Positions 1 through 11,668 of a DNA stretch of 12,298 nt are shown piece by piece. The first letter of the stretch is position 1. Each line of letters starts with the position of its first letter. The stretch comes from an uncultured Ruminococcus sp. Lineage in GTDB: Bacteria; Bacillota; Clostridia; Oscillospirales; Acutalibacteraceae. Below the pieces are notes generated by a model, which saw nothing but the letters and a program-made list of their open reading frames with translations, was not told the DNA's origin and did no database searches. Position numbers and translations under genes: made by a program. The DNA is taken from the NCBI GenBank assembly GCA_951800855.1, contig CATOLC010000015.1, positions 1-12,298 of the forward strand, read 5' to 3'.

Positions 1-1970
1 ATCTTAACTTCTTTTGAATCCCTCGCTGCCATAAACGCAGCATTTACCGCAATATTTTTGATACTTCCTCCTGTCATTTCAAAATTCTTTGACAAATATT
101 TAAAATCTATATCTGAGCTTAACGGAGTTTTGGAAGAAAACATATTTTTCCAGATTTTTTCCCGAGCGGCAGCATCAGGAAAAGCAAAATGAATAACATA
201 GCTTATGCGCCGAAAAAAAGCAACATCTATGTTTTCTACATAATTAGTGGTCATAATAGATATTCCGTCATATTCTTCCATCTTTTGCAGCAAAAATGAG
301 GTTTCGAGATTGGCATTTTTATCGTGGGAATCTTTAACCGCAGTACGTTTCCCAAAGAGTGCATCAGTTTCATCGAAAAGTAAAATAGCATTACTTTTTT
401 TTGCTTCATTAAAAAGTTCATTGAGATTTTTTTCCGTTTCACCTATATATTTTGAAACTACTTGAGACAAGTCTGTCTTGTAAAGCTCTAAATTCAATTC
501 ATTCGCCACAACCTGTGCGGCCATAGTTTTCCCTGTACCAGGAGGTCCTGCAAAAAGCATGCTAAGACCCCTTCCATAAAGTATCCTGGAATTCATTCCC
601 CACTCATCGTAAACGATATTTCTATATTTAATCTGATCACATGCATTTCGTATCATATTTTTCTCATTTATGTCCAAAACTAAATCTTTCCATGTATATC
701 TGGATTTTATTATAGTAGATTTACTAGACAACTTGCTTATATAGTTAGAATAAGCACACTTGCATAAATCCTTGATTTTAAGCTCTTTGCAACCCTTCCA
801 ATACCAAAATGACCGTACAGAACCTATTGTGGATTTAATCTGTGCAGGTGTAAAATTAAACCTATTAGCAAGTTCTCTTGATGGTACCTTAGTAACGCCA
901 TTTAAATCTTTTAAATAACTTTTCCACAGTGCAGCATTTTCCTTGCCGTTAAGACTCTCAATGGGAATATTTATAATCGAAATATTGTCTTTTACCGGTA
1001 TATTTGATAGTTCTCTATTCGAAAGGATAAACATTTCTCTTGAGAATTTAGGAATATTTTCCATCAAAAATTCCAAATACTCGTATTTTTGTGCAGACAT
1101 CTCATTAAAAACTTCAAAATTATCTAAACATATACTCCCGTTTATTATAAGCGCTTCCCTTAACGGCGAATAAATCAGATTATAAAATGTTTCACTTCTC
1201 AGTAAAGCATAAAGCTTCATATCAATTATTATTGTGCCTTTAACCATAAGTTCAGATGCTCTTTTAGCTATCGTCTTTTTCCCTATTCCCGACTCTCCAT
1301 GCAAGTAAAAACAAAATTGTTTTCCCTGTGGTCTAAGTTCGCTTATTTCAAAAATTCTCTTGGAAATTCTTTCTCTTATGGGCAGCACTCCCCTGCTGTC
1401 CGTATCCGGAACATACACTTCTACTCCGCTTAGGGCAATCTTTTTTTCTCCAAAATATAAAAAACTTAAAATATTTTCGTCTATCTTTGTTGAGTGTTCT
1501 GAAAAGCATAAGGAGGACATCTTAAATTTTAGATTTATTAGCTGTGAAGATGAATACTCTATTTCATCAAAGTTCTCAACAAAATAAAATATTTTCATTA
1601 TAATCTCATAATCTAAAACACCCCTCTCCTCTGCCCCTCCTAAACTCTGAATAAGTGCTTTGTAATGATGATCTGTATCAAATATCAAACTCATCAGAAA
1701 GCAAAACCACTCCAAATCATTTAAACTAAAACATTCTTTTATATGTTTGGCATAAAGTGACAACTTTTTATCAGTGTTTTTCAGACGTGAAGAAATAAAA
1801 ACACCTGCAAGAGAAAAGTCTTCTTTTACTAGTTTACGGCACTCTATAAATATTTTTTGCTCTGCACAGATTTTATAGTAATTTATCATCATTTTTACTA
1901 TTTTTAAATTATCATCCAGATATTCCCTGTTATCTTCATACCCCACGTCTAATAAATTCGAAGGGAACAT
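1..1970 (-). CDS. Tandem AAA+ ATPase of the contractile injection system type (Afp15/Pvc15-like), C-terminus cut by the window edge
   Basis: My translation reads without a stop for 656 codons from the ATG at 1970 to the window edge, so the C-terminal end is missing. Residues 1-200 are a helical region with no motif I recognise. A first AAA+ module has Walker A GESGIGKKT (225-233) but a Walker B ending LDN (D283, N284), with Asn where the catalytic Glu belongs. The second module is canonical: GPPGTGKT (475-482), LLFDETDALFGKR with D533/E534, sensor-1 Asn576, an arginine pair after FF (587-588) and a GGSIKN sensor-2 motif. The DETDALFGKR stretch is typical of ATPases in eCIS gene clusters, whose role is thought to be particle assembly or remodelling; the exact substrate is unknown. 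The first module probably binds but does not hydrolyse ATP (inference). It is the last visible gene of the operon. The start is uncertain: the ATG is directly abutted by AAGGAG with no spacing, and an ATT at 1991 is better placed. Confidence 0.9.
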   Translation of the reverse strand, partial: MFPSNLLDVGYEDNREYLDDNLKIVKMMINYYKICAEQKIFIECRKLVKEDFSLAGVFISSRLKNTDKKLSLYAKHIKECFSLNDLEWFCFLMSLIFDTDHHYKALIQSLGGAEERGVLDYEIIMKIFYFVENFDEIEYSSSQLINLKFKMSSLCFSEHSTKIDENILSFLYFGEKKIALSGVEVYVPDTDSRGVLPIRERISKRIFEISELRPQGKQFCFYLHGESGIGKKTIAKRASELMVKGTIIIDMKLYALLRSETFYNLIYSPLREALIINGSICLDNFEVFNEMSAQKYEYLEFLMENIPKFSREMFILSNRELSNIPVKDNISIINIPIESLNGKENAALWKSYLKDLNGVTKVPSRELANRFNFTPAQIKSTIGSVRSFWYWKGCKELKIKDLCKCAYSNYISKLSSKSTIIKSRYTWKDLVLDINEKNMIRNACDQIKYRNIVYDEWGMNSRILYGRGLSMLFAGPPGTGKTMAAQVVANELNLELYKTDLSQVVSKYIGETEKNLNELFNEAKKSNAILLFDETDALFGKRTAVKDSHDKNANLETSFLLQKMEEYDGISIMTTNYVENIDVAFFRRISYVIHFAFPDAAAREKIWKNMFSSKTPLSSDIDFKYLSKNFEMTGGSIKNIAVNAAFMAARDSKEVK

Positions 1971-1988
1971 CTCCTTAAGCTTGCTTTT

Positions 1989-2005
1989 AATACAAACCAC
2001 CTCCC
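1989..2005 (-). promoter_or_regulatory. Strong Shine-Dalgarno with a possible ATT start for the AAA+ gene
   Basis: On the minus strand GGGAGG (2000-2005), part of GGGAGGTGG (1997-2005), lies eight bases before an in-frame ATT (1991-1989). From there the reading continues KSKLKEMFPSN into the ATPase. The annotated ATG (1970) is touched by AAGGAG (1971-1976) with zero spacing, which is poor for initiation. The only other in-frame candidates, GTG at 2000 and GTG at 2009, overlap or precede the Shine-Dalgarno. ATT initiation is rare but known, with infC as the classic case. Confidence 0.45.
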
Positions 2006-2023
2006 ACACTATATTTGTAATCT

Positions 2024-3853
2024 TTATTTTTTCTTCTTAAACTCATGTATTCCGTCTTCCAGCGACTCGGCTTCAGGATCTTCAATGCTGGAATTAGCCG
2101 GCGGACCCATTGCCCCTGGTGGCATTGGTGCTTGACCATTTGGAGCGGAATTAGCCGGCGGACCCATTGCCCCTGGTGGCATTGGTACTTGACCGTTCGG
2201 AGCGGAATTAGCCGGCGGACCCATTGCCCCTGGTGGCATTGGTACTTGACCGTTCGGAGCGAAATTAGCCGGCGGACCCATTGCCCCTGGTGGCATTGGT
2301 GCTTGACCGTTCGGAGCGAAATTATCAGGCGGACCCATTGCCCCTGGTGGCATTGGTGCTTGACCGTTCGGAGCGAAATTATCAGGCGGGTTCATTGCCC
2401 CTGGTGGCATTGGTACTTGACCATTCGGAGCGAAATTATTCGGTGGACCCATTGCCCCTGGCGGCATCGGTGCTTGACCATTTGGAGCGAAATTATCAGG
2501 CGGGTTCATTGCCCCTGGCGGCATCGGTGCTTGACCATTTGGAGCGAAATTATCAGGCGGGTTCATTGCCCCTGGCGGCATCGGCGCTTGACCATTTGGA
2601 GCGAAATTATCAGGCGGGTTCATTGCCCCTGGTGGCATTGGTGCTTGTCCGTTCGGAGCGAAATTATCAGGTGGACCCATTGCCCCTGGCGGCATTGGTG
2701 CTTGACCGTTTGGAGCGAAATTATCAGGCGGGCCCATTGCCCCTGGTGGCATCGGTGCTTGACCGTTTGGAGCGAAATTATCAGGCGGACCCATTGCCCC
2801 TGGTGGCATCGGTGCTTGACCGTTTGGAGCGAAATTAGCCGGCGGACCCATTGCCCCTGGTGGCATCGGTGCTTGACCATTGGCTTTTAATTGGTTCATT
2901 GCTCCTGGCTGATTATTCGGGAGCATCGGTATTGGACCACTTATAGCAAATTGCTCTCCTGTGCCAACCTGCTTAGGCGGAAGCATTGCTGAAAAATTAA
3001 TACCCACGTCTCCTTCTTCCATATCATCAAAATTACTTTCTTCCTCTTGTACTTGTAGCGTCTTGGGCAGTTTTTTAGGCTCTAATTCCGTCAAATCTGT
3101 TTCGGCAATAATTAATTTTTCGCTGTCATCTATCTCGGGGACCGACAGCTTCATTTTGGCATATTTCCCCCCTGCAAATACTTCAAATCTTGCTTTGCTT
3201 CCTTTCATAAACTGTCTAAAAATTGGCAAAATAACCTTTCCATTTTCATCAGTTTTTAAATCCCATATTGGATACAGCTTGCCTCCAGGTGATAACTCTA
3301 CTTCAGCTGGATCTTTCATAAAATAATCCGATTTTGATATATCATACCCATATATATAAAATTCATTTTCTGTGCCCTGGTTACGATAAGCATATCTTTG
3401 GAAAACAAAACTTTTATTATTTTCCATATTGAATACTATTTTATTTTTTCTTTTTTTTACAGGCTGCAGCACCTTAAGAAAATTCAAATCATCTACAAGC
3501 TTAAAGCGGACATTAGAATCTTTCCATGGCATACCGTCCTTATTAACTTGAATTTCAAAACGTTTTTCCCTTTGCATTTGTGCATTATCCAAAGCATAGG
3601 GTAAATTCATCATAATAGTTTTCGTTTCATTTGCTCTTACTTCAAGGTCTAAACGAATATCCAAAAAACCTTTGCAAATTATGTCTACACGATATTTTTT
3701 AGGATATAAATTAGAAAAGGCATAATATCCTCCCGTTGCCTTACTATAACGAATCTGCTTACCATCACACAATATAACAGCATTTGCAATAGGCTCTTTA
3801 GTATACATGTCTGTAAGTAAAATTGCCAAAGAAGCTCTATATAAAGTCCTCAT
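2024..3853 (-). CDS. Soluble protein with carboxypeptidase-regulatory-like N-domain and fourteen 19-residue Pro/Gly/Asn-rich repeats (CIS locus)
   Basis: About 609 residues from the ATG at 3853, chosen because AGGTG (3863-3867) sits nine bases upstream; ATG 3862 and GTG 3865 are in-frame alternatives that overlap the Shine-Dalgarno. Residues about 6-88 form a predicted beta-sandwich like the carboxypeptidase regulatory/PEGA families (pattern: I.LTD..T.EPI.NA.I..., then Y.F.NLYP..Y.V). Residues about 100-245 look like a second beta-rich domain of unknown type. An acidic linker (255-290) follows, then fourteen copies of a unit built on NFAPNGQAPMPPGAMGPPD, then a tail with acidic residues ending in four lysines. 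There is no signal peptide or TM helix, so it is probably cytosolic or particle-associated. It lies 17 bases after the Pvc16-like gene and 53 bases before the AAA+ ATPase. A structural, tether or fibre-like role is inference; collagen is a poor match because Gly is not at every third residue. Confidence 0.88.
   Translation of the reverse strand: MRTLYRASLAILLTDMYTKEPIANAVILCDGKQIRYSKATGGYYAFSNLYPKKYRVDIICKGFLDIRLDLEVRANETKTIMMNLPYALDNAQMQREKRFEIQVNKDGMPWKDSNVRFKLVDDLNFLKVLQPVKKRKNKIVFNMENNKSFVFQRYAYRNQGTENEFYIYGYDISKSDYFMKDPAEVELSPGGKLYPIWDLKTDENGKVILPIFRQFMKGSKARFEVFAGGKYAKMKLSVPEIDDSEKLIIAETDLTELEPKKLPKTLQVQEEESNFDDMEEGDVGINFSAMLPPKQVGTGEQFAISGPIPMLPNNQPGAMNQLKANGQAPMPPGAMGPPANFAPNGQAPMPPGAMGPPDNFAPNGQAPMPPGAMGPPDNFAPNGQAPMPPGAMGPPDNFAPNGQAPMPPGAMNPPDNFAPNGQAPMPPGAMNPPDNFAPNGQAPMPPGAMNPPDNFAPNGQAPMPPGAMGPPNNFAPNGQVPMPPGAMNPPDNFAPNGQAPMPPGAMGPPDNFAPNGQAPMPPGAMGPPANFAPNGQVPMPPGAMGPPANSAPNGQVPMPPGAMGPPANSAPNGQAPMPPGAMGPPANSSIEDPEAESLEDGIHEFKKKK
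2090..2884. repeat. 57-bp in-frame tandem repeat, 14 units
   Basis: Fourteen near-identical 57-bp units encode the 19-residue repeat. Unit types are clustered: the ending GPPA occurs at both ends of the array, GPPD and NPPD runs occupy the middle, and Val replaces Ala at QVPMPPG in three copies. Neighbouring units share silent changes, such as the ggcggcatcgg versus ggtggcattgg forms. This points to amplification by slippage or unequal crossing-over. The array is visibly far richer in G+C than the surrounding AT-rich genes. Its periodicity keeps other frames open on both strands, which creates spurious long ORFs. Confidence 0.97.
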
Positions 3854-3882
3854 ATCAACCATCACCTATCGTTAAAACTTAT

Positions 3883-4578
3883 TTAAAAATCGTCATCTCC
3901 GCCATCATCATTTTTACCCAGGTCTTCCGCATCCCTCTGAGTATAATCGTCGTCAATCTCTTCTTCCTTAATTCGGGTTTCAAACTGTATAATCTTCTTT
4001 GGTACAAATTGGGTACTGTTAAGAAGGAACGACTTGACTCTTTTATCAGGTTTCTGTATGTTTTCAGATTCTATAGATATTGGTCCTGCCACATAAAATG
4101 AAGAAATTTTGTAAGATTCCCCAAAAAGAGTCCAAATTTTCACTTTTTCTTCTACCTCAAGCGGAAGCATGCTAATAGGAATAAGTTCACTTGGGTATTC
4201 GCTGGATTGTGGCATATAAATACTTGGAATGTTGGGATTATCGTTCATAACCTGGATAACTTTACCAATTATCCGAGCCTCATCTATGGCTTTAGTCTCT
4301 ATATCTGCCTGGCTACAAACAGATATCATAAAGTAAACCTCTATTCTCGCAGGAGGAGCTTGCACACTGCCATCAGGTAAAGTTAAAGCCTCCTGAGCTT
4401 TTCCATCCCGATTTTCCTGAATATCATAAGGGTGAATTCCAACTACATATCCGCCACGATTTTTAGGTTCACACATGCCAATGTACTCCGGCTTATCAAT
4501 TGGCTCAGGGACAAGCTTGTCCCTGAGCATATTTACAAGTCCCTTTCCTATATCTGAAATTATTGAATATTTAGCCAC
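3883..4578 (-). CDS. DUF4255/Pvc16-family contractile injection system protein
   Basis: 231 residues from a GTG start with AAGGGGG eight bases upstream. The family pattern is visible along residues 1-170: an N-terminal helix (ISDIGKGLVNMLRDKL), HPYDIQEN (49-56), PPARIEVYFMISVCSQ (75-90), a long helix with EARIIGKVIQVMNDNPNIPS (100-119) and VKIWTLFGESYKISSFYVAGP (about 146-166). These match the Pvc16 N-terminal domain (DUF4255). Known members in Photorhabdus/Afp-type particles act at the end of the tube and sheath as a terminator or cap. Residues 205-231 form a strongly acidic tail, rich in D and E, which is not part of the core fold. It sits between the secreted CuAO-like protein gene and the repeat protein, and it is the clearest CIS marker in the window besides the AAA+ ATPase. 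The coding sequence contains a 26-bp perfect palindrome near its 5' end. Confidence 0.88.
   Translation of the reverse strand: MAKYSIISDIGKGLVNMLRDKLVPEPIDKPEYIGMCEPKNRGGYVVGIHPYDIQENRDGKAQEALTLPDGSVQAPPARIEVYFMISVCSQADIETKAIDEARIIGKVIQVMNDNPNIPSIYMPQSSEYPSELIPISMLPLEVEEKVKIWTLFGESYKISSFYVAGPISIESENIQKPDKRVKSFLLNSTQFVPKKIIQFETRIKEEEIDDDYTQRDAEDLGKNDDGGDDDF
4503..4528. repeat. Perfect 26-bp palindrome inside the Pvc16-like gene
   Basis: The arm GCTCAGGGACA is followed by AGCT and then by the exact reverse complement of the arm. The sequence is 26 bp of uninterrupted dyad symmetry with 16 G/C bases in an AT-rich gene. It covers codons of the peptide LRDKLVPE near residues 18-25. In the mRNA it could form an 11-bp stem with a four-base loop about 50 bases after the GTG. 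No U-run follows on either strand, so it is not a standard intrinsic terminator. Confidence 0.9.
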
Positions 4579-4627
4579 CTATATTTCCCCCTTCAAGCTT
4601 TGACTTTAACTCATTTATATTTTCTTC

Positions 4628-5821
4628 TTACCCAATATTTATTTCATTCGGTTCAGAAGGGTCACTTAACTGATTTAAATTATTATACATAACTATTGTC
4701 TCTAGCTCAGAGATATATCTATATGCAATTCCATAAGTCTCAGCAAAAAATTCAGCTGAAATATATATAGTATTGTTTATATTCATTACCGGTACTGACA
4801 TGCTTTTGGGTTCGTCATTCAAATAAGCTATATTTTTCCCGCTTGTAAGTTCTAAAGTATTTCCAGGAGACTGAATTACTAAGTTAGCATTATTATACAT
4901 ATAGTCAACTTTTGCATCTATATATTGATAAGCATCATCTATAGCAATTAATATGTGTCCATCATACATAACCGGCATAAATTTAAGGTTAAACGCACCA
5001 TCCAAGAAAATAACTTGCTCCGGAAAAACACCAGCAGTTTTTTTGCCCCTGCTGCCAAACTCTTCTGATTTTTCCACTAAAGTATTATATTCAGACTCCG
5101 TATATTTTTGTTTCTCATATGATTTAAGAAGCGTTATAGCAACTTCAAGAGCATCTTTAGCAACATCTAAACGGTGATCTGAAAACATATTTTGGCTTAT
5201 AGCTCCATAAAGCATCAAAACATCCAAAAGTGAACGCTGTTTGACTGACATCGCATCTATATCGTTAAGATCTACTAACCCTTCTATCTCAGCAAAAATT
5301 TCCTGAAGCTTTCCAATATCGTCTGAACCTAAAGTTTCCAGAACCATCAAGGCTTCATCTGAAAGAGCCCCTTTTAAATCCTCAAGAATCGTGGTAACCG
5401 CTAAAACTTTATTAAGTTCCTCGTCAAGAGTATTAACATCGCTGTTTTTCTTTTTCATAGCTTCTATCAGACTATTAAGAGAATCTAATTGCTTTTGAAG
5501 CTCATATTTAGATTTTGTATTTTCTGCATACTGTTTTAAAGCATCATTTCCTGAAAGTTCTGCACGTTTGATTATTTCATCTAATTTTTCTAAAACATTG
5601 TCTATATTCGTGGATACCTTTAAATCATCAATTATCTTTTCTATTTCATCGCTTGTCAGACTTTGCTCAGCAGTAGTCTCAGAAGCTGTTCCCTCAGTTA
5701 TTTGTTCAACTGCCGCGGTACTATCATTAGCTGTTGCAAACGAAAGTGCGAGCCCTAAAGAAATTATTCCCGATAAAGAAACTGCTAATATATTTCTTCC
5801 TATAGTTTTTAATGATTTCAT
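4628..5821 (-). CDS. Secreted helical protein with C-terminal copper-amine-oxidase-N-like domain
   Basis: 397 residues. A signal peptide is clear: basic MKSLKTIGRN, a hydrophobic core at about 11-29, then a likely cleavage near the ATA-ND region (30-33). Residues 35-57 are a Ser/Thr/Glu-rich spacer. Residues about 57-255 are strongly helical with heptad-like patterns, likely coiled coil or a helical bundle. Residues about 280-380 (PVMYDGHILIAIDDAYQYID, then VPVMNINNTIYISAEFFAETYGI) resemble the copper amine oxidase N-terminal-like domain common in secreted Clostridia and Bacilli proteins, often in repeats and usually not an enzyme. GAGGAGTG precedes the ATG. The gene is 52 bases downstream of the MORN gene and 49 before the Pvc16-like gene, so co-transcription is likely. 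An extracellular scaffold or envelope role is inference; no catalytic residues are recognised. Confidence 0.85.
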   Translation of the reverse strand: MKSLKTIGRNILAVSLSGIISLGLALSFATANDSTAAVEQITEGTASETTAEQSLTSDEIEKIIDDLKVSTNIDNVLEKLDEIIKRAELSGNDALKQYAENTKSKYELQKQLDSLNSLIEAMKKKNSDVNTLDEELNKVLAVTTILEDLKGALSDEALMVLETLGSDDIGKLQEIFAEIEGLVDLNDIDAMSVKQRSLLDVLMLYGAISQNMFSDHRLDVAKDALEVAITLLKSYEKQKYTESEYNTLVEKSEEFGSRGKKTAGVFPEQVIFLDGAFNLKFMPVMYDGHILIAIDDAYQYIDAKVDYMYNNANLVIQSPGNTLELTSGKNIAYLNDEPKSMSVPVMNINNTIYISAEFFAETYGIAYRYISELETIVMYNNLNQLSDPSEPNEINIG

Positions 5822-5873
5822 TATTTTTCACTCCTCTTAATTTATAAACCATCTATCTTTATGTAAATCTGCC

Positions 5874-7394
5874 TTACATAGAACAAATCTCTATGCATTT
5901 AAGTTCTGTTCTTCCATCATTAAAGTAAAATCTAATAAAATATTGATCCATTATATATTTATCACTAGGAACTTTACTTATATCATTTATATTAATCGAT
6001 AAATCCCTAAGAATAGTCTTGTAATAATTAGGCATATTAAAATTTATAGAAGAAAACGGCTCACCCATCACTTCCCTGCGTTCCATCGCAGTACTCTGTG
6101 CTCCAAGTCCCATAAATTCATCCTTTGTTCCAATTACAACCTTTTCACATACATATATTCCTTTATTTGAATCTATCTTAAATACAATCGAAGCATCCAA
6201 AGAAAGATAAGTCAAAATCATCTTATTATCAACTTCCGTACGGTAGCTTTCCTGGCCAAACTGGGAAGTTACTTCATCAACTGTAGAGTTTAAATACTGT
6301 ATATAATCTATACTCCCACTTCTAAAGGTCCCGCTAAATGATTCTGACCCCAAAGAATCAAATGAAGAGCCTGTTCCCTGTTTTTGACCTTTTGAAAAAT
6401 TACCGTCATAAATTATTACTCCTGTCCCTGGGTCATATAGTTTTCCACTACCATCATATTGTCCCTCCTTAAAATTCCCCGAATAGACCAACGCTCCGGT
6501 ATCCGTATCATAAAGGTTGCCTTCTCCGTCGTACACACCGTTCACAAAATCTCCTAAATACAAAAGATTTCCATTTTCATATAATTTTCCGTTCCCGTTA
6601 TACTCTCCAGATACGAAATTCCCTTCATAAATAATTGTAGATCCATCTGTATCATATAAAACTCCATAGCCTTGTCTTAAATCGCTCTGAAATTCTCCAT
6701 AATAAGTCCTTAGCTGAGTTTTAGGGTCATAATCTATACCTTTACCGGACTTTTGTCCAACAGAAAATTCACCTATATAAGTTACTTTTCCAATATCATT
6801 GTAAAGTTTCCCATTTCCATCATATTTATTGTTCAGAAAAGAGCCTTCATATATCACAATTCCATTAGAATTATACATTTTTCCATCTCCGGAATATCTT
6901 CCCGAACTAAAGTTTCCCTCATAAATAGCGTTTCCACTGCCGTCATACTGTGTGCCGTAACCTTGTGGCTTTCCTTTTTCCATATCACCAATATAAACTG
7001 TTTGGTTCATGGTATCAATAACTTTAGCTTTTCCGGTAAAATATGAATATTTTTCACTGTCTACTCTTATGGTAGCTCTCCAGAGTTTTCCTTCTGCCCA
7101 AGGATAACCATAAGCCACTGCAAGAAAGCCCAAAACACAAGTTATAATGGTGGCCATAACAACAAATCTTTTAGAAAAATAAAGACCCAGAACTTTCCAA
7201 TAATCTTTTTTAGATGTAGGCTTCTTGGTAAGAGTACGCATAAACTTCTGTAGCTTTTGTTGCGCACCCTGAGCCGCCTGAGTAGCGAAATTTTGAAGTT
7301 TAAATACCCAAGCTGTTAGTCCTGTAATCTGAGACTGCACTGAAGACACCAGTCGGGAAATTATCTCGGTAATCGGGTTCTGACCAATAGCCAT
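5874..7394 (-). CDS. Single-pass membrane protein with about ten MORN repeats
   Basis: 506 residues, with AAAGGTGA a few bases before the ATG. Residues 1-57 are amphipathic and Gln/Ala-rich. A basic stretch (57-76, KKPTSKKDYW...SKR) precedes one TM helix (about 77-97). By the positive-inside rule the rest of the protein is extracytoplasmic. MORN motifs of the form Y.G.F..G...G.G..Y begin near 134, 158, 182, 206, 231, 256, 279, 304, 329 and 353 (the last degenerate, FSGTF). MORN repeats are extended beta-hairpin stacks that usually mediate protein or lipid contacts or act as spacers. The C-terminal 140 residues (about 365-506) contain VDEVTSQFGQES and VFKIDSNKGIYV, vaguely like a BamE/SmpA-type alpha/beta fold, but I do not claim it. 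Context: second gene of the operon, 38 bases after the receptor gene. An anchoring or spacer role towards the cell wall is inference. Confidence 0.9.
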   Translation of the reverse strand: MAIGQNPITEIISRLVSSVQSQITGLTAWVFKLQNFATQAAQGAQQKLQKFMRTLTKKPTSKKDYWKVLGLYFSKRFVVMATIITCVLGFLAVAYGYPWAEGKLWRATIRVDSEKYSYFTGKAKVIDTMNQTVYIGDMEKGKPQGYGTQYDGSGNAIYEGNFSSGRYSGDGKMYNSNGIVIYEGSFLNNKYDGNGKLYNDIGKVTYIGEFSVGQKSGKGIDYDPKTQLRTYYGEFQSDLRQGYGVLYDTDGSTIIYEGNFVSGEYNGNGKLYENGNLLYLGDFVNGVYDGEGNLYDTDTGALVYSGNFKEGQYDGSGKLYDPGTGVIIYDGNFSKGQKQGTGSSFDSLGSESFSGTFRSGSIDYIQYLNSTVDEVTSQFGQESYRTEVDNKMILTYLSLDASIVFKIDSNKGIYVCEKVVIGTKDEFMGLGAQSTAMERREVMGEPFSSINFNMPNYYKTILRDLSININDISKVPSDKYIMDQYFIRFYFNDGRTELKCIEICSM

Positions 7395-7432
7395 AGGCTT
7401 ATCACCTTTCTTCCAAAAATTAATCTGAGTGT

Positions 7433-10357
7433 TTAATCAAATAAATTTCCAGTCCATTCTTTTCTGTTAAATTTATTATCTTTAGCATTTATCTGTTCAT
7501 CACACTTCATCAAATAATGAATTGCAACTGCGTCTTTACTGTTTATTTTCAGCACATCTGAAAACATTTTTCTTGCCTTTATAAATTCACCATTTCTATA
7601 AACTTTTACAGCATTTTCAAATAGTTCTTTAGTGTTTATATATAAATCCTTTCTATAGTGGTTATTCATGTCTATTATTTCATAAACTCCAACACTTCCC
7701 GAACTATAAACCTTGCCTATATTCCCTATAAATCTATAATTGCAAATCCCTGTCTGTGGTAATTTCTTTATAATTGAATCTGTAGCTACATGATTAATTT
7801 TAAGTGTTCTCAAATATCTATCTATATTAAATAACTGCATAAGCTGATCTGATACAACCAACACACCTCTACGCTGGGAATTTCCTGATATTCCCAGTAA
7901 GACTTCACCAGAACCTAAGGTAAGATTGAGTGTTTCCCTTATTTTGTCATTTATGAACACTTCTTTGAACTGCATGGAAGCATTAAAAGCATCTTCAGCG
8001 CTGTTCGGGAACAATATTCTTGCCCCTATACTACTAAATAGATGAACAACTCCTCTATTTTTTTCAACTACATTAAAGAAACTTTCATAACTTGCATTCA
8101 AGAGGTCAAAAAGCTCTTTTTCGGAACTAAAGCTATCTGTATCCTGGCACGATATATTAAAAGTAAGATAAATAATATTCATGTTAAGAGTTTTGTAATC
8201 ATGCAAATGTACAGCAGTTATTTTATCTTTACCTATTAATTTAAAAATCTCAGAAGGAGCATATTTTACATATTTTTCGTTTAATAATATAAGATTTGAA
8301 GTATATTTGTCCATTTTAGAAGACATAAGGTTAAAAGTTTCTGCGATATCCGCAAATTCATCCTTAGATGTTACCCGTGCTCTTGTGTTCCAAACACCCC
8401 TTCCCATGGCATTTATGCTCTTTTCCAAAATTTTAATAGGTCTTAAGGAATATTTTACTATTAAACACATATATCCAAAAACTAAAACTACAGCTATAAG
8501 AATTGCTGAGGACGAATGCTCAAATATTTGCCGAATTTTTCTATTTCTGTGTATATTCTCATCTATAAAGTTCCCAACAAACCCTACTACAGTACCATCT
8601 CTGAGTTTTATTGGTGCAAAAGACGCTGAAATGTCTCCATATACATCGCCAAAATCAATCCTCACTATATCTGTTACTTCGGTTTCTGAGGTAAAACTCT
8701 TCCAAGCCGCATAAATTTTTTCTGTCTCACTCCTTTCCAAAGCATAATCTACAAGCATAGTATTATTTGTAATCATATCCGGGTTTGTATACTTAAGGCT
8801 TTCATATGACTCTGATTCAGTTTTATATTTACTGCTGAAAGTTGAATAAATCTTATTATTTTTCACAACATATGCTACAACATAATCACTCCTGTCTCCT
8901 ATTTTTGAGGCAATATCATTGTAAGCTTCCTGCACCATATTTCTTAAAGATATATAATTTGTATTCATGTAATCGCCTGTATGGTCAATAGAGAAAAACA
9001 AATCTCCGTCTATATGGTCCGAAGCAATTTTGGCACCAATGTCCTGATCATTTTTTAAAACTTTTATATATTCATCAGAAGCATCTTTAACCGTAATAAA
9101 AAGCAGAACCAGCATTGAAACAAGAAAAACTGGGAAAAACAAGCCTGTAATCCTGAGAGCTAAAGGTATACGTTTTATTTCATAACGTATAGCTATCTTA
9201 AGCAAAAAGTAAAGTCCAATTACTGCAGCTGCCACAACAATTGTAATTAAAAAGCCTCCTGGAACAAAAGCCCCCGTAACATTTTTAATAATCAAACTAT
9301 TGGCACCAAATCTAACATGATAAGGATTAGAAAAATCTTTAGAAGGAGCATAATAATCATCCAGAGAAATAAGTTTAGGCGTGCGAAGATCCTTTAATTT
9401 TATATCTGTGTTGGTAACAACTGAGCTTTCCAGCTGATAAATATTTGTCGTAGAAATACTCCGTGTATCCATTTTATAAAAATTGCCACTGAGAGCATCT
9501 GTAAAATAAAGGTTATCGCTCCCATCCACGCTAAATCCTGTCAAAAGTATGCTGTCTCTGGATACCACTTCAGTATAATCCAGGAAGGTGCTTTGATTGT
9601 CCATTGCATAAAACTTACCGCTTTTTGTAGAATAAACTACTCTGCCATTAGACAGCACTGCTATATCTTGAACCCACTCAATATTTTTAGTTGACTGATC
9701 TGTAATCGGGTTAATTGTAAATATCTTTAATTCTTGATTTTGTGTATCTTGCAAAGGATCTGCCGTTATCACTCTATAAGTTGTATCTATTGCACAAACT
9801 AAAGTGACTTTCTGATCAACAATTTGGAGTTTCCTTATATAGGGTACAATAGGAGGGCTGGCATCCTGTGAAAAATCTGCCGATGCAGCTTGTTTTATAT
9901 AGTTCCCATTAGTATCATACATTAAAACGGTTTCTCTAAGTATTGGATACTCAGATTTGTCATCTGCAACAGTATATATATCTCTTTCCTCTTTTACTAT
10001 ATAGAAATTACCTTTAGAGTCCGACTCAATAAATCTATATGTGTTTTGGATTTTGTCGGTAGAACTATCTAAATTCATTTGAAACTGTACTTGACCATTA
10101 GAGCGAACTTTTGTTACCTTATATTTATTTGTATCCGTATTAACCCCTAATACGTAAATATTTCCTTCGGGATCCATATCAGAACTCAAAAACACACCAA
10201 AATCCGGTCTATAAAATGTGAACTGTACTAAATATCCCAATACAAGACCAAATATCACTAAAAAAGTGTATATTACTATAGGATTTAAACCTTTTTTTTC
10301 TTTCACCTCCAAAGCTGCCTTGCGGTTACGTTTAAACTTATCTTTCAGCTTAAACAT
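7433..10357 (-). CDS. Membrane receptor: extracellular beta-propeller, Cache-like domain, HAMP, degenerate class III cyclase domain, TPR-like tail
   Basis: 974 residues, GGGGGAT Shine-Dalgarno before the ATG. The N-terminal basic region is followed by TM1 (26-47). Residues about 52-360 are a repeat-rich beta region with propeller blade motifs (DPEGNIYVLG, DSKGNFYIV, GSDNLYFTDALSGNFYKMD). TM2 (368-388) and TM3 (401-422) flank a short cytosolic turn. Residues 423-612 are a Cache-like sensor, then TM4 (613-636), HAMP (637-688, LRPI..LE..I..MGRG...R......DEFADIAETFNLM) and a class III nucleotidyl cyclase fold (713-895). Both metal-binding Asp positions appear changed: LTFNIS has Asn734, and SSIGARILF has Ala779 where GD is expected. 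The tail (905-956) is the helical TPR-like segment often found after cyclase domains. It therefore probably signals by conformation, not by making cAMP or cGMP. It is the first gene of the operon, with a strong promoter. Confidence 0.88.
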   Translation of the reverse strand: MFKLKDKFKRNRKAALEVKEKKGLNPIVIYTFLVIFGLVLGYLVQFTFYRPDFGVFLSSDMDPEGNIYVLGVNTDTNKYKVTKVRSNGQVQFQMNLDSSTDKIQNTYRFIESDSKGNFYIVKEERDIYTVADDKSEYPILRETVLMYDTNGNYIKQAASADFSQDASPPIVPYIRKLQIVDQKVTLVCAIDTTYRVITADPLQDTQNQELKIFTINPITDQSTKNIEWVQDIAVLSNGRVVYSTKSGKFYAMDNQSTFLDYTEVVSRDSILLTGFSVDGSDNLYFTDALSGNFYKMDTRSISTTNIYQLESSVVTNTDIKLKDLRTPKLISLDDYYAPSKDFSNPYHVRFGANSLIIKNVTGAFVPGGFLITIVVAAAVIGLYFLLKIAIRYEIKRIPLALRITGLFFPVFLVSMLVLLFITVKDASDEYIKVLKNDQDIGAKIASDHIDGDLFFSIDHTGDYMNTNYISLRNMVQEAYNDIASKIGDRSDYVVAYVVKNNKIYSTFSSKYKTESESYESLKYTNPDMITNNTMLVDYALERSETEKIYAAWKSFTSETEVTDIVRIDFGDVYGDISASFAPIKLRDGTVVGFVGNFIDENIHRNRKIRQIFEHSSSAILIAVVLVFGYMCLIVKYSLRPIKILEKSINAMGRGVWNTRARVTSKDEFADIAETFNLMSSKMDKYTSNLILLNEKYVKYAPSEIFKLIGKDKITAVHLHDYKTLNMNIIYLTFNISCQDTDSFSSEKELFDLLNASYESFFNVVEKNRGVVHLFSSIGARILFPNSAEDAFNASMQFKEVFINDKIRETLNLTLGSGEVLLGISGNSQRRGVLVVSDQLMQLFNIDRYLRTLKINHVATDSIIKKLPQTGICNYRFIGNIGKVYSSGSVGVYEIIDMNNHYRKDLYINTKELFENAVKVYRNGEFIKARKMFSDVLKINSKDAVAIHYLMKCDEQINAKDNKFNRKEWTGNLFD

Positions 10358-10421
10358 TACAGATCCCCCTTAAAAAATTACTCAAAATTTTTCAATTTTT
10401 CAAGTATCTTCATCTTTACTA

Positions 10422-10450
10422 TTGATAAAATATATTATATAATATAGTAT
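10422..10450 (+). promoter_or_regulatory. Sigma-A-like promoter for the pseudokinase-LysM gene
   Basis: TTGATA (10422-10427), a 17-base spacer and TAGTAT (10445-10450) fit the vegetative consensus moderately. The start would be near 10457, with a leader of about 65 bases before the ATG at 10523. The -10 box lies on nearly the same bases as the -10 of the divergent operon promoter (10446-10451), so polymerase could not open both at once. The surrounding run is very AT-rich, so other -10 choices exist. Confidence 0.55.
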
Positions 10451-10474
10451 ATTAGCATAAAACATTTAAGTCAA
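10446..10474 (-). promoter_or_regulatory. Sigma-A-like promoter for the minus-strand operon
   Basis: On the minus strand, TTGACT (10474-10469), a 17-base spacer and TATACT (10451-10446) match the vegetative consensus closely. Transcription would start near 10439, leaving a leader of roughly 80 bases before the receptor ATG at 10357. I see no riboswitch-like structure in that AT-rich leader. Confidence 0.72.
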
Positions 10475-10522
10475 GTGTAAAAAAATTGGTTTTTATTTAA
10501 AATAAGGAAGGTGTAAAAATTT

Positions 10523-11668
10523 ATGCAAAATTTCAAAAATATGTCAGATTATACTTTAATCGGCAACCTTCATTCCGACGAAAATATAGAAGTATTAATC
10601 GCCTTCAAAAAAGAAAATACCCCGGATAATTTGTACATATTAAACAAAATACCCTTTATCAAACAAAATATGGGAATATTTAAAAAATTTTTCTTTTGTT
10701 TCAATTCAAAAAACAAAATACCAGAATTTGAAGATTTATTTGTTTTAGATAAATATTTTTATGCTATATTTAAATATAAAAACTGCGGGAATATAAAAAC
10801 TAACTTTTCAAGGGAGCTTTGTGTTAATGTTTTTGATGAAAGATGTGCATTTTTAGAGAAAATTCTAATGAAATTAAATTCACTTTCAGAGCTTCCAATA
10901 GGGGCTTTGGTTTGTGTAACTTCCCCTGAAAATATTGCTATAGACGATGATAAAAAAATAAATATTACTTATAATTTTAGTAATATATTTAAAAATCAAA
11001 ACTGTTCTATGGCAGATGTGTATAAAAATATTGGAAATGTTATATTTACTATCCTTCAAATAGAAGCTGGAGTAAAATATAATAAAGCTTTACATGTTGT
11101 ATTAGGGAAATGCAAAAGTGGCGTATATTCTTCCATTTTAGAATTAGCTGTAGACCTTAAAAGGGCCGCAAAAGTTTCAAAAAGTACCAGTCTTCTTTCT
11201 TATCTTAAATATCAGTTAAGCCTTAGGAAAAAATTAATAACCAAATTTACTGAATATGTCACAGTTTCTGCAGCAGTCTTCGGACTTGTTTATTTAGGAT
11301 ATAATGCTATTACTAAAAACACTCAGCAAGCATCTTCTGTCCAAGTTGTGTCTATTGGGGACATTAATTACACTGGTGACACTGAAGATACTACCGATAA
11401 AGACATCAGTACCGAGAAAAAAACAACTAAAACAGAAACTACTAATGCCGAAATTAATCTTTCGCCTGGGCTGGACATAGAATATGAAGACTACATTATC
11501 CAAAGCGGAGATACAATCTCTGGAATATGCGAAAGGTACTATAAAGATGTAACACTTGCAACTGCGGTATCGTCTTTTAATAACCTTTCCGTAAATGAAA
11601 AACTTATCGCTGGGTCTCTATTGAAACTCCCGAATAAGACCGCTATTGCTCTCTATACTTCTAACTAA
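10523..11668 (+). CDS. Membrane pseudokinase-like protein with extracytoplasmic LysM domain
   Basis: 381 residues, with AAGGAAGGTG before the ATG. Residues about 8-220 follow a protein-kinase outline: N-lobe strands with LYILNKI (37-43) at the VAIK position, FEDLFVLDKYFYAIFKYKNCGN (69-90) like the hinge region, SPENIAIDDDKKINITYNF (134-152) like the pxNI...DFG segment, and a C-lobe helix (DVYKNIGNVIFTIL). The HRD Asp and the DFG Asp are absent (YNF replaces DFG), so catalysis is unlikely. A basic stretch (RKKLITK) precedes one TM helix (about 244-262), then a Ser/Thr/Asp/Glu-rich linker (270-315) and a LysM domain (about 322-370, YIIQSGDTISGICERYY...LLKLP) that would bind peptidoglycan outside. 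It is transcribed divergently from the CIS-linked operon. Linking wall state to a cytosolic partner is a plausible but unproved role. The kinase similarity is read by eye. Confidence 0.82.
   Translation: MQNFKNMSDYTLIGNLHSDENIEVLIAFKKENTPDNLYILNKIPFIKQNMGIFKKFFFCFNSKNKIPEFEDLFVLDKYFYAIFKYKNCGNIKTNFSRELCVNVFDERCAFLEKILMKLNSLSELPIGALVCVTSPENIAIDDDKKINITYNFSNIFKNQNCSMADVYKNIGNVIFTILQIEAGVKYNKALHVVLGKCKSGVYSSILELAVDLKRAAKVSKSTSLLSYLKYQLSLRKKLITKFTEYVTVSAAVFGLVYLGYNAITKNTQQASSVQVVSIGDINYTGDTEDTTDKDISTEKKTTKTETTNAEINLSPGLDIEYEDYIIQSGDTISGICERYYKDVTLATAVSSFNNLSVNEKLIAGSLLKLPNKTAIALYTSN

Follow-up and report, generated by a model that had tools for sequence, protein, structure and literature searches.

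A candidate envelope-control module recurring with contractile injection system genes in Clostridia

The 12,298-b stretch of DNA analysed here (the window) is the entire contig C15 of a metagenome-assembled genome (source MAG G000; 951 kb, 167 contigs, 77% complete), and it raises the question of why genes resembling envelope sensors lie in one run with genes of a contractile injection system (CIS). The ORF list placed six genes in a row, all on the minus strand. In gene order these were a 974-aa receptor (7433..10357), with a HAMP domain (Pfam, 1e-8), predicted transmembrane segments (TMs) and a profile match to adenylate cyclase; a 506-aa MORN protein (5874..7394; Pfam MORN, 6e-18) with one TM; a 397-aa secreted stalk-domain protein (4628..5821; Pfam Cu_amine_oxidN1, 6e-15) with an N-terminal hydrophobic segment; a 231-aa protein of the Pvc16/tail-terminator family (DUF4255; 3883..4578; Pfam Pvc16_N, 6e-21); a CarboxypepD_reg-like protein whose Pro-rich tail consists of 19-aa repeats (2024..3865); and a AAA+ ATPase of the type that eCIS loci carry (3..2009; Pfam AAA, 1e-30), which is cut by the contig end. 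The Pfam matches agreed with the identities that a sequence-only reading had given these genes. Of its repeat protein, the tandem repeats stood, with only a sub-threshold Pfam match to CarboxypepD_reg (PF13620, 1e-4); of its tandem AAA+ ATPase, a P-loop-like GESGIGKK was visible by eye ahead of GPPGTGKT, and Pfam scored the second alone.

The same reading had strand and order right and took the gaps to be 17 to about 50 b; from receptor to AAA+ they are 38, 52, 49, 17 and 14 b, so that the smallest is 14 b. No minus-strand terminator-like site was listed by our scan between the six genes, including the gap between the stalk and Pvc16 genes where a break in the proposed operon had been considered, and two were listed inside the receptor gene. 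The operon had also been said to start from one strong promoter. A promoter-like site with a 10/12 match lies at 10474-10446, within the 165-b divergent intergenic region (10358..10522) that carries such sites on both strands; since promoter-like sites occurred in the window at about chance number (60 found versus 51 +/- 6 expected), the candidate site exists and the label "strong" is without support. Across this region lies a divergent 381-aa LysM gene (10523..11668, plus strand; Pfam LysM, a weak TM and a suspected degenerate kinase-like domain), which had been omitted by ending the feature at 10357 and whose family recurs in CIS loci. The order of the six genes was repeated in a genus-mate (G001; locus L003, CASPLG010000012.1), with 67% receptor identity, and the receptor, MORN and Pvc16 genes recurred jointly across the order, mostly without the stalk gene. 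The six-gene arrangement is therefore not a chance one.

We found the rest of the machine on other contigs. The source MAG gave one sheath match, on contig C4 and not on C15, and C4 codes for sheath, tube, a small conserved protein, a second tube protein, a 967-aa protein, hub, spike, gp25 and the start of baseplate J. In the genus-mate, the structural cluster, including the gene P598, occupies about 55.3-75 kb of the 85.3-kb contig C2, the module lies on the 43.1-kb contig C12, and the distances to the contig ends put the two at least ~21 kb apart. Profiles detected no sheath, tube, baseplate or other CIS gene besides the module on C12. The expectation that CIS structural genes would lie within about 20 kb of the cluster thus failed on this 43-kb contig; since the receptor's contig carried at least one structural gene in all 18 receptor-bearing genomes of the order outside the window's genus, such a distance limit was too strict. 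Among the genus-mate's proteins, the Pfam cut-off was passed by the sheath, both tubes, spike, gp25 and Tail_P2_I but not by the hub (0.001) or baseplate J (0.0004). The sheath matched PF04984/PF17482 and eCIS and phage sheaths, and its second- and third-best PDB matches were 8bky and 8bl4, which we take to be Streptomyces CIS. Both genomes (C4 of G000, C2 of G001) accordingly hold the gene set by which an eCIS is recognised, namely clustered sheath, tube, spike, gp25 and baseplate genes together with a Pvc16/DUF4255 terminator and a AAA+ ATPase. Contiguity of the Pvc16 and AAA genes with the structural genes is absent in the window's genus, where they are split, and present in many other genomes. 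The sole Pvc16 match in each of the two genomes sits within the module, which indicates that the structural cluster and the module each contribute parts of a single machine.

P598 is a single gene in the genus-mate; its N-terminus is common to fibre-like genes elsewhere, its C-terminal Ig-like matches fell below cut-off, and its one weak PDB match covered the C-terminal part. Further features were noted on the structural stretch of the source MAG. The second tube protein (L005:8931-11255; 774 aa, 647 in the genus-mate) has a long, charged, coiled-coil-like tail, and the 967-aa protein (L005:11290-14193), in tape-measure position, had no Pfam match. Two Ser- and acid-rich proteins coded upstream of the cluster (L005:34-2739 and 2819-3469), also without Pfam match, are possible cargo and by eye seemed to have a C-terminal stretch in common. 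A sigma-70-family factor gene (L005:3584-4270) lies on the opposite strand beside the cluster.

Co-occurrence was measured in a sample of 394 genomes of the order, with loci mapped by profile hits. Pvc16 was found in 21 genomes, 19 of which also carried the receptor family (on the Pvc16 contig in 17, on another contig in G115 and G194) and 20 the MORN protein. The exceptions were G059, without receptor, MORN and LysM/kinase-like gene, and G337, which has the MORN and kinase-like genes and no receptor found nearby. P598, the last gene of the baseplate cluster, was followed by receptor and then MORN in 16 of the 21; G106 and G120 differ in gene order or strand, and P598 was not nearby in the source MAG. 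For the reverse direction, an order-wide receptor profile was run over 162 genomes. Full-length receptors were detected in 9 of 10 Pvc16-positive genomes (the tenth being G059) versus none of 152 Pvc16-negative ones, and scored 487-909 bits against 64 bits for the next hit; 122 of the 162 genomes gave only partial hits of at most 64 bits, centred on the HAMP domain, which were left out as receptors. A plain MORN model matched 116 of the 394 genomes at 1e-10, and such counts mislead. Among the matches listed (to E ~1e-11), a MORN protein with the CIS-type N-terminus occurred in 20 of the 21 Pvc16-positive genomes versus 0 of the 373 others, CIS-type being defined as a match starting at model position 60 or before, a cut set post hoc (six other genomes start at 69-74). 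The Fisher p of 1e-32 for this table takes account neither of shared descent nor of the cut having been set post hoc. The co-occurrence whose absence would have counted against the sequence-only reading was thus observed for receptor and MORN genes alike, and together with the shared loci it strongly supports the membrane genes as part of a CIS, a membership shown here by sequence.

Class-wide, Pvc16 was found in 15 of 391 genomes; two belong to the order (G000 and G068), and the 13 others were all inspected. Receptor-family and MORN genes were nearby in seven of the 13 (G419 at its second locus, G480, G550, G590, G610, G701 and G717). In G590 and G701, the receptor-family genes (564 and 320 aa, respectively) align with the model over its C-terminal part only, and gene order or strand differs in G590, G701, G717 and the second locus of G419. 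The module was absent from G527, G589, G628, G677 and G745 (G419's genus), whose loci were read through three fibre-like genes; G587 was left out of this tally because its contig ends inside baseplate J. These loci and the first locus of G419 (L098, L099, L111, L112, L114, L115, L120-L122 and L125-L130) are of a fibre type, with three large fibre-like genes apiece (at the G419 locus, two were seen) and no envelope module, and the fibre-like genes have in common with P598 its first ~70 positions only. The G059 locus within the order is also fibre-type. Both kinds of locus meet in G419: the first is fibre-type without the module, whereas in the second (L123, L113) a long P598 match precedes MORN and receptor genes that lie on the opposite strand.

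We next consider what the module proteins could do. Hydrophobicity and flanking charges predict four TMs in the receptor (26-44, 368-386, 403-421 and 616-634), with a propeller-like outer domain between TM1 and TM2, a Cache-like outer domain between TM3 and TM4, and the HAMP domain at 633-680. Next come a class III cyclase-like domain (~695-890), which a profile matched to the adenylate cyclase 2w01 at E 2e-4, and a C-terminal TPR-like stretch. The remaining labels are weak: at E<=5, 6 of 43 relatives matched the SBBP propeller repeat, 4 matched TPR_2 and one matched a Cache family. Over 19 receptor rows, four TMs were predicted in 15, five in 3 and none in one fragment, and identity outside the window's genus was 14-24%. 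Class III adenylate cyclases are alike in the profile match, and the receptor differs from them at the catalytic positions: the two metal Asp and the transition-state Asn/Arg were not kept in the 43 close relatives that this result covers, divergent receptors of other genera being outside its scope. Position 734 (first metal Asp, placed by motif) was Asn in 43 of 43, and positions 777, 840 and 844 (placed by HMMER alignment) were never Asp, Asn and Arg, respectively. The neighbouring positions 775 and 778 were Asp in 27 and 24 relatives, and a one-column slip could restore one such residue in some of them, not in the window. Signalling through cAMP or cGMP by the window receptor was accordingly judged unlikely. 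No kinase, response-regulator or DNA-binding domain was matched in it. Given the lost catalytic residues and no kinase or DNA-binding domain matched, output by protein contact appears likelier than output by cAMP and is the simplest reading. A candidate relative from Duganella (L004) was dropped, as its 27% identity covered 65 aa of the HAMP region alone, and none of 67 stretches of viral contigs that matched a pattern encoded a receptor relative.

The MORN protein has an N-terminal segment of ~76 aa, a TM at 77-95, and then MORN repeats and a C-terminal domain that are predicted to lie outside; hydrophobicity and flanking charge fit an N-in topology. A TM near the N-terminus was present in 20 of 21 MORN locus homologues, the remaining one being a fragment. 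The stalk gene was found among the mapped loci only in G000, G001, G098, G252 and G379; elsewhere its position is taken by other secreted-looking proteins, for example OEP-like (TolC-like) ones. OEP matches between the MORN and Pvc16 genes (L044:5060-7075, L067:10336-12378) were just above cut-off in G080 and below it in G319. An iterated profile placed the LysM-gene family in 25 CIS loci; in G000 and G001 the gene is divergent to the receptor, and in the other 23 it lies between P598 and either the receptor or the MORN gene. The LysM/kinase-like gene was present in 19 of the 21 Pvc16-positive genomes of the order (not in G059 and G125), and the same profile did not find it in the fibre-type loci, the second locus of G419, G701 or G717. 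LysM tails were seen in the window's genus, G098, G252 and G379, and the hydrophobic segment was strong in 16 of the 25 loci, weak in 2 (G000, G001) and absent from 7. The kinase-like label comes from weak PDB matches only, the best kinase E values being 0.008 (A3) and 0.015 (A8, whose top match overall was a bromodomain protein at 0.0067, ahead of the kinase), and we suspect a degenerate kinase-like domain. By its recurrence in these loci, the divergent LysM gene belongs to the envelope module.

Going by their families, Pvc16 proteins cap the tube and AAA+ ATPases of this kind aid loading or assembly. The window's Pvc16 protein gave profile matches to 9gts (Pvc16_N, 1e-7) and to Afp16 (6rap, 1.5e-4). 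The AAA+ ATPase, presumably a counterpart of Pvc15, has a 709-aa orthologue in the genus-mate (L003:17971-20100). In the repeat protein, a 57-b tandem repeat at 2092-2878 (13.8 copies, 93% matching) codes for the Pro-rich 19-aa unit, and the genus-mate's counterpart has an acidic tail in its place. Long antisense ORFs over this repeat look like by-products. Directly after the AAA gene, G098 has an eCIS_core gene (L034:4749-7427; PF13699, 6e-30; payload-type) and the genus-mate only small ORFs.

Taken together, we think it rather probable that these genes form the envelope-control module of a CIS that is docked to the envelope and gated by the receptor, and this interpretation is supported as far as sequence can carry it. 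A CIS would assemble in the cytoplasm from the sheath, tube, hub, spike, gp25 and baseplate proteins, whose genes lie at another place in the genome; Pvc16 would cap the tube and the AAA+ ATPase would assist loading or assembly. The MORN and LysM/kinase-like membrane proteins, together with the wall-side stalk protein, would hold the particle at membrane and wall, and the cytoplasmic parts of the two membrane proteins would contact the baseplate. The four-TM receptor would read an outside ligand or contact and pass the signal through HAMP to the cyclase-like domain with its lost catalytic residues and the TPR-like tail, which by protein contact would permit outward firing through the cell's own envelope. 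We infer docking, gating and the outward direction of firing; a docking or triggering role, which the sequence-only reading had suggested for the membrane genes, is the best reading of them. The co-occurrence, the place after P598, the fibre-type contrast seen in G419, the topology and the lost catalytic residues all argue for the module. The exceptions G337 and G059, the variants of order and strand, the partial receptor-family genes of G590 and G701, the loci in which the LysM/kinase-like gene is missing or has no clear TM, the stalk gene in five loci and the lack of linkage in the window's genus argue against it; expression or cell death, in place of docking, may also be what the module acts on.

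Cell death is central to the alternative that survives best, one we consider rather unlikely: a cytoplasmic CIS under sensor control, in which envelope stress, sensed by the module, leads to the death of the producing cell, with no delivery to another cell. The sheath's second and third PDB matches point toward Streptomyces, and the MORN protein is similar in topology and place to the Streptomyces protein CisA. CisA, a bitopic protein, is encoded directly after the baseplate genes; firing and cell death require it, and its particle showed no tail fibres (PMC12237407). However, the envelope parts here outnumber CisA alone, the payload-type gene beside the AAA gene in G098 fits delivery, and suicide would be hard to reconcile with a host-bound lineage. 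Quite improbable, in our view, is a module that regulates CIS production only, with particles freed by lysis as in other eCIS. HAMP receptors usually regulate, and the sigma-70-family gene beside the structural cluster of the source MAG would suit such a role. According to Geller et al., a GerE regulator adjoins 25.8% of eCIS loci, in some cases together with a histidine kinase, and LysM is an eCIS shell domain; the receptor, however, has no matched kinase, response-regulator or active cyclase domain. That unrelated envelope genes lie beside the Pvc16 and AAA genes by chance, as might be thought from the source genome alone with its structural genes on another contig, is refuted by the recurrence of the receptor in 19 of 21 Pvc16-positive order genomes (17 on the Pvc16 contig) and 7 of 13 further class genomes and by the contrasts of 9/10 versus 0/152 (receptor) and 20/21 versus 0/373 (MORN, among the matches listed).

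If the envelope-docked, receptor-gated reading holds, the host lineage suggests a target. The genus-mate codes for an ATP/ADP translocase (E 5.6e-138), and none was found in the window's 77%-complete MAG. Two translocase-like genes were seen in the genus-mate (L082 and L083, on G001:C6 and C63), one strong and one weak; G768, given as the same genus, showed match coordinates identical to those of G001, and these two were taken as one genome. A published genome study describes a 'small genome clade' of putative energy parasites in the Acutalibacteraceae, known from termite-gut protists and from MAGs of the ruminant and human gut; the clade is proposed to have originated together with the ATP/ADP translocase (PMC10579323). 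The GC content of 35% on the two contigs read and the MAG size fit this clade, and the genus-mate at 1.8 Mb is large for it. The three endosymbionts named in that study appeared in our MORN search with 98-99% coverage and 42-45% identity (P0249, P0263 and P0271), with the CIS-type N-terminus and the TM present. From the co-occurrence of MORN and Pvc16, these three protist endosymbionts should carry the CIS. The words 'contractile', 'injection' and 'secretion' are absent from the main text of the study, and Sec export is assigned there to at least 20 of 42 eukaryotic-like gene products (PMC10579323). With the translocase in the genus-mate, delivery into protist hosts is plausible. More tentatively, and as a possibility only, 'energy parasite' Clostridia (the Ca. 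Improbicoccus lineage) might have kept a Gram-positive, T6SS-like mode derived from an eCIS, receptor-gated and with four-protein envelope docking, to inject proteins into gut protists.

What is new here is the recurring envelope-sensor module of the CIS; clostridial eCIS as such are already in print, Geller et al. listing one from Ruminiclostridium. We found no description of such a module in the open-access papers searched on contractile injection with MORN, HAMP or Oscillospiraceae and on eCIS with Firmicutes and adenylate cyclase. On the question of how a Gram-positive CIS contacts the membrane and receives its firing signal, CisA is the one adaptor described in the literature covered. A defined, recurring candidate set (receptor, MORN anchor and LysM/kinase-like protein) with a sharp contrast of presence and absence, extending to two locus kinds within G419, makes this question testable. 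The recurring sensor and anchor genes suggest a machine that stays at the envelope until a receptor fires it, instead of being released. It may also be a means of delivery for Clostridia dwelling in protists, for which Sec export was proposed in the published genome study.

Among known systems, the closest is the CIS of Streptomyces, likewise Gram-positive, in which CisA is coded where other eCIS have tail fibres (PMC12237407). The outer domain of CisA is solute-binding-like, whereas MORN repeats, a four-TM receptor, a LysM/kinase-like protein and a secreted stalk protein are found here. By hydrophobicity and charge, the MORN protein follows a CisA-like plan (bitopic, N-terminus cytoplasmic), and it stands in a CisA-like place, one or two genes after P598, except in the window's own genus; the likeness is one of plan and place. 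The thylakoid-anchored CIS of Anabaena is likewise thought to act while anchored to a membrane; there, extended baseplate and fibre proteins of the particle itself provide the anchor (PMC8894136), unlike the separate module here. PVC and Afp eCIS have homologues in common with this system for sheath, tubes, spike, gp25, baseplate, Pvc16 and AAA+, but they are released and aim by fibres, whereas one full-length P598 and an envelope module are present here. The type VI secretion system is alike only in the proposed mode, docked to its own envelope and firing outward; the sheath here is Phage_sheath_1 (PF04984) and not TssB/TssC. The best reading is of an envelope-docked, receptor-gated CIS, analogous to the CisA-dependent one of Streptomyces and built from other parts.
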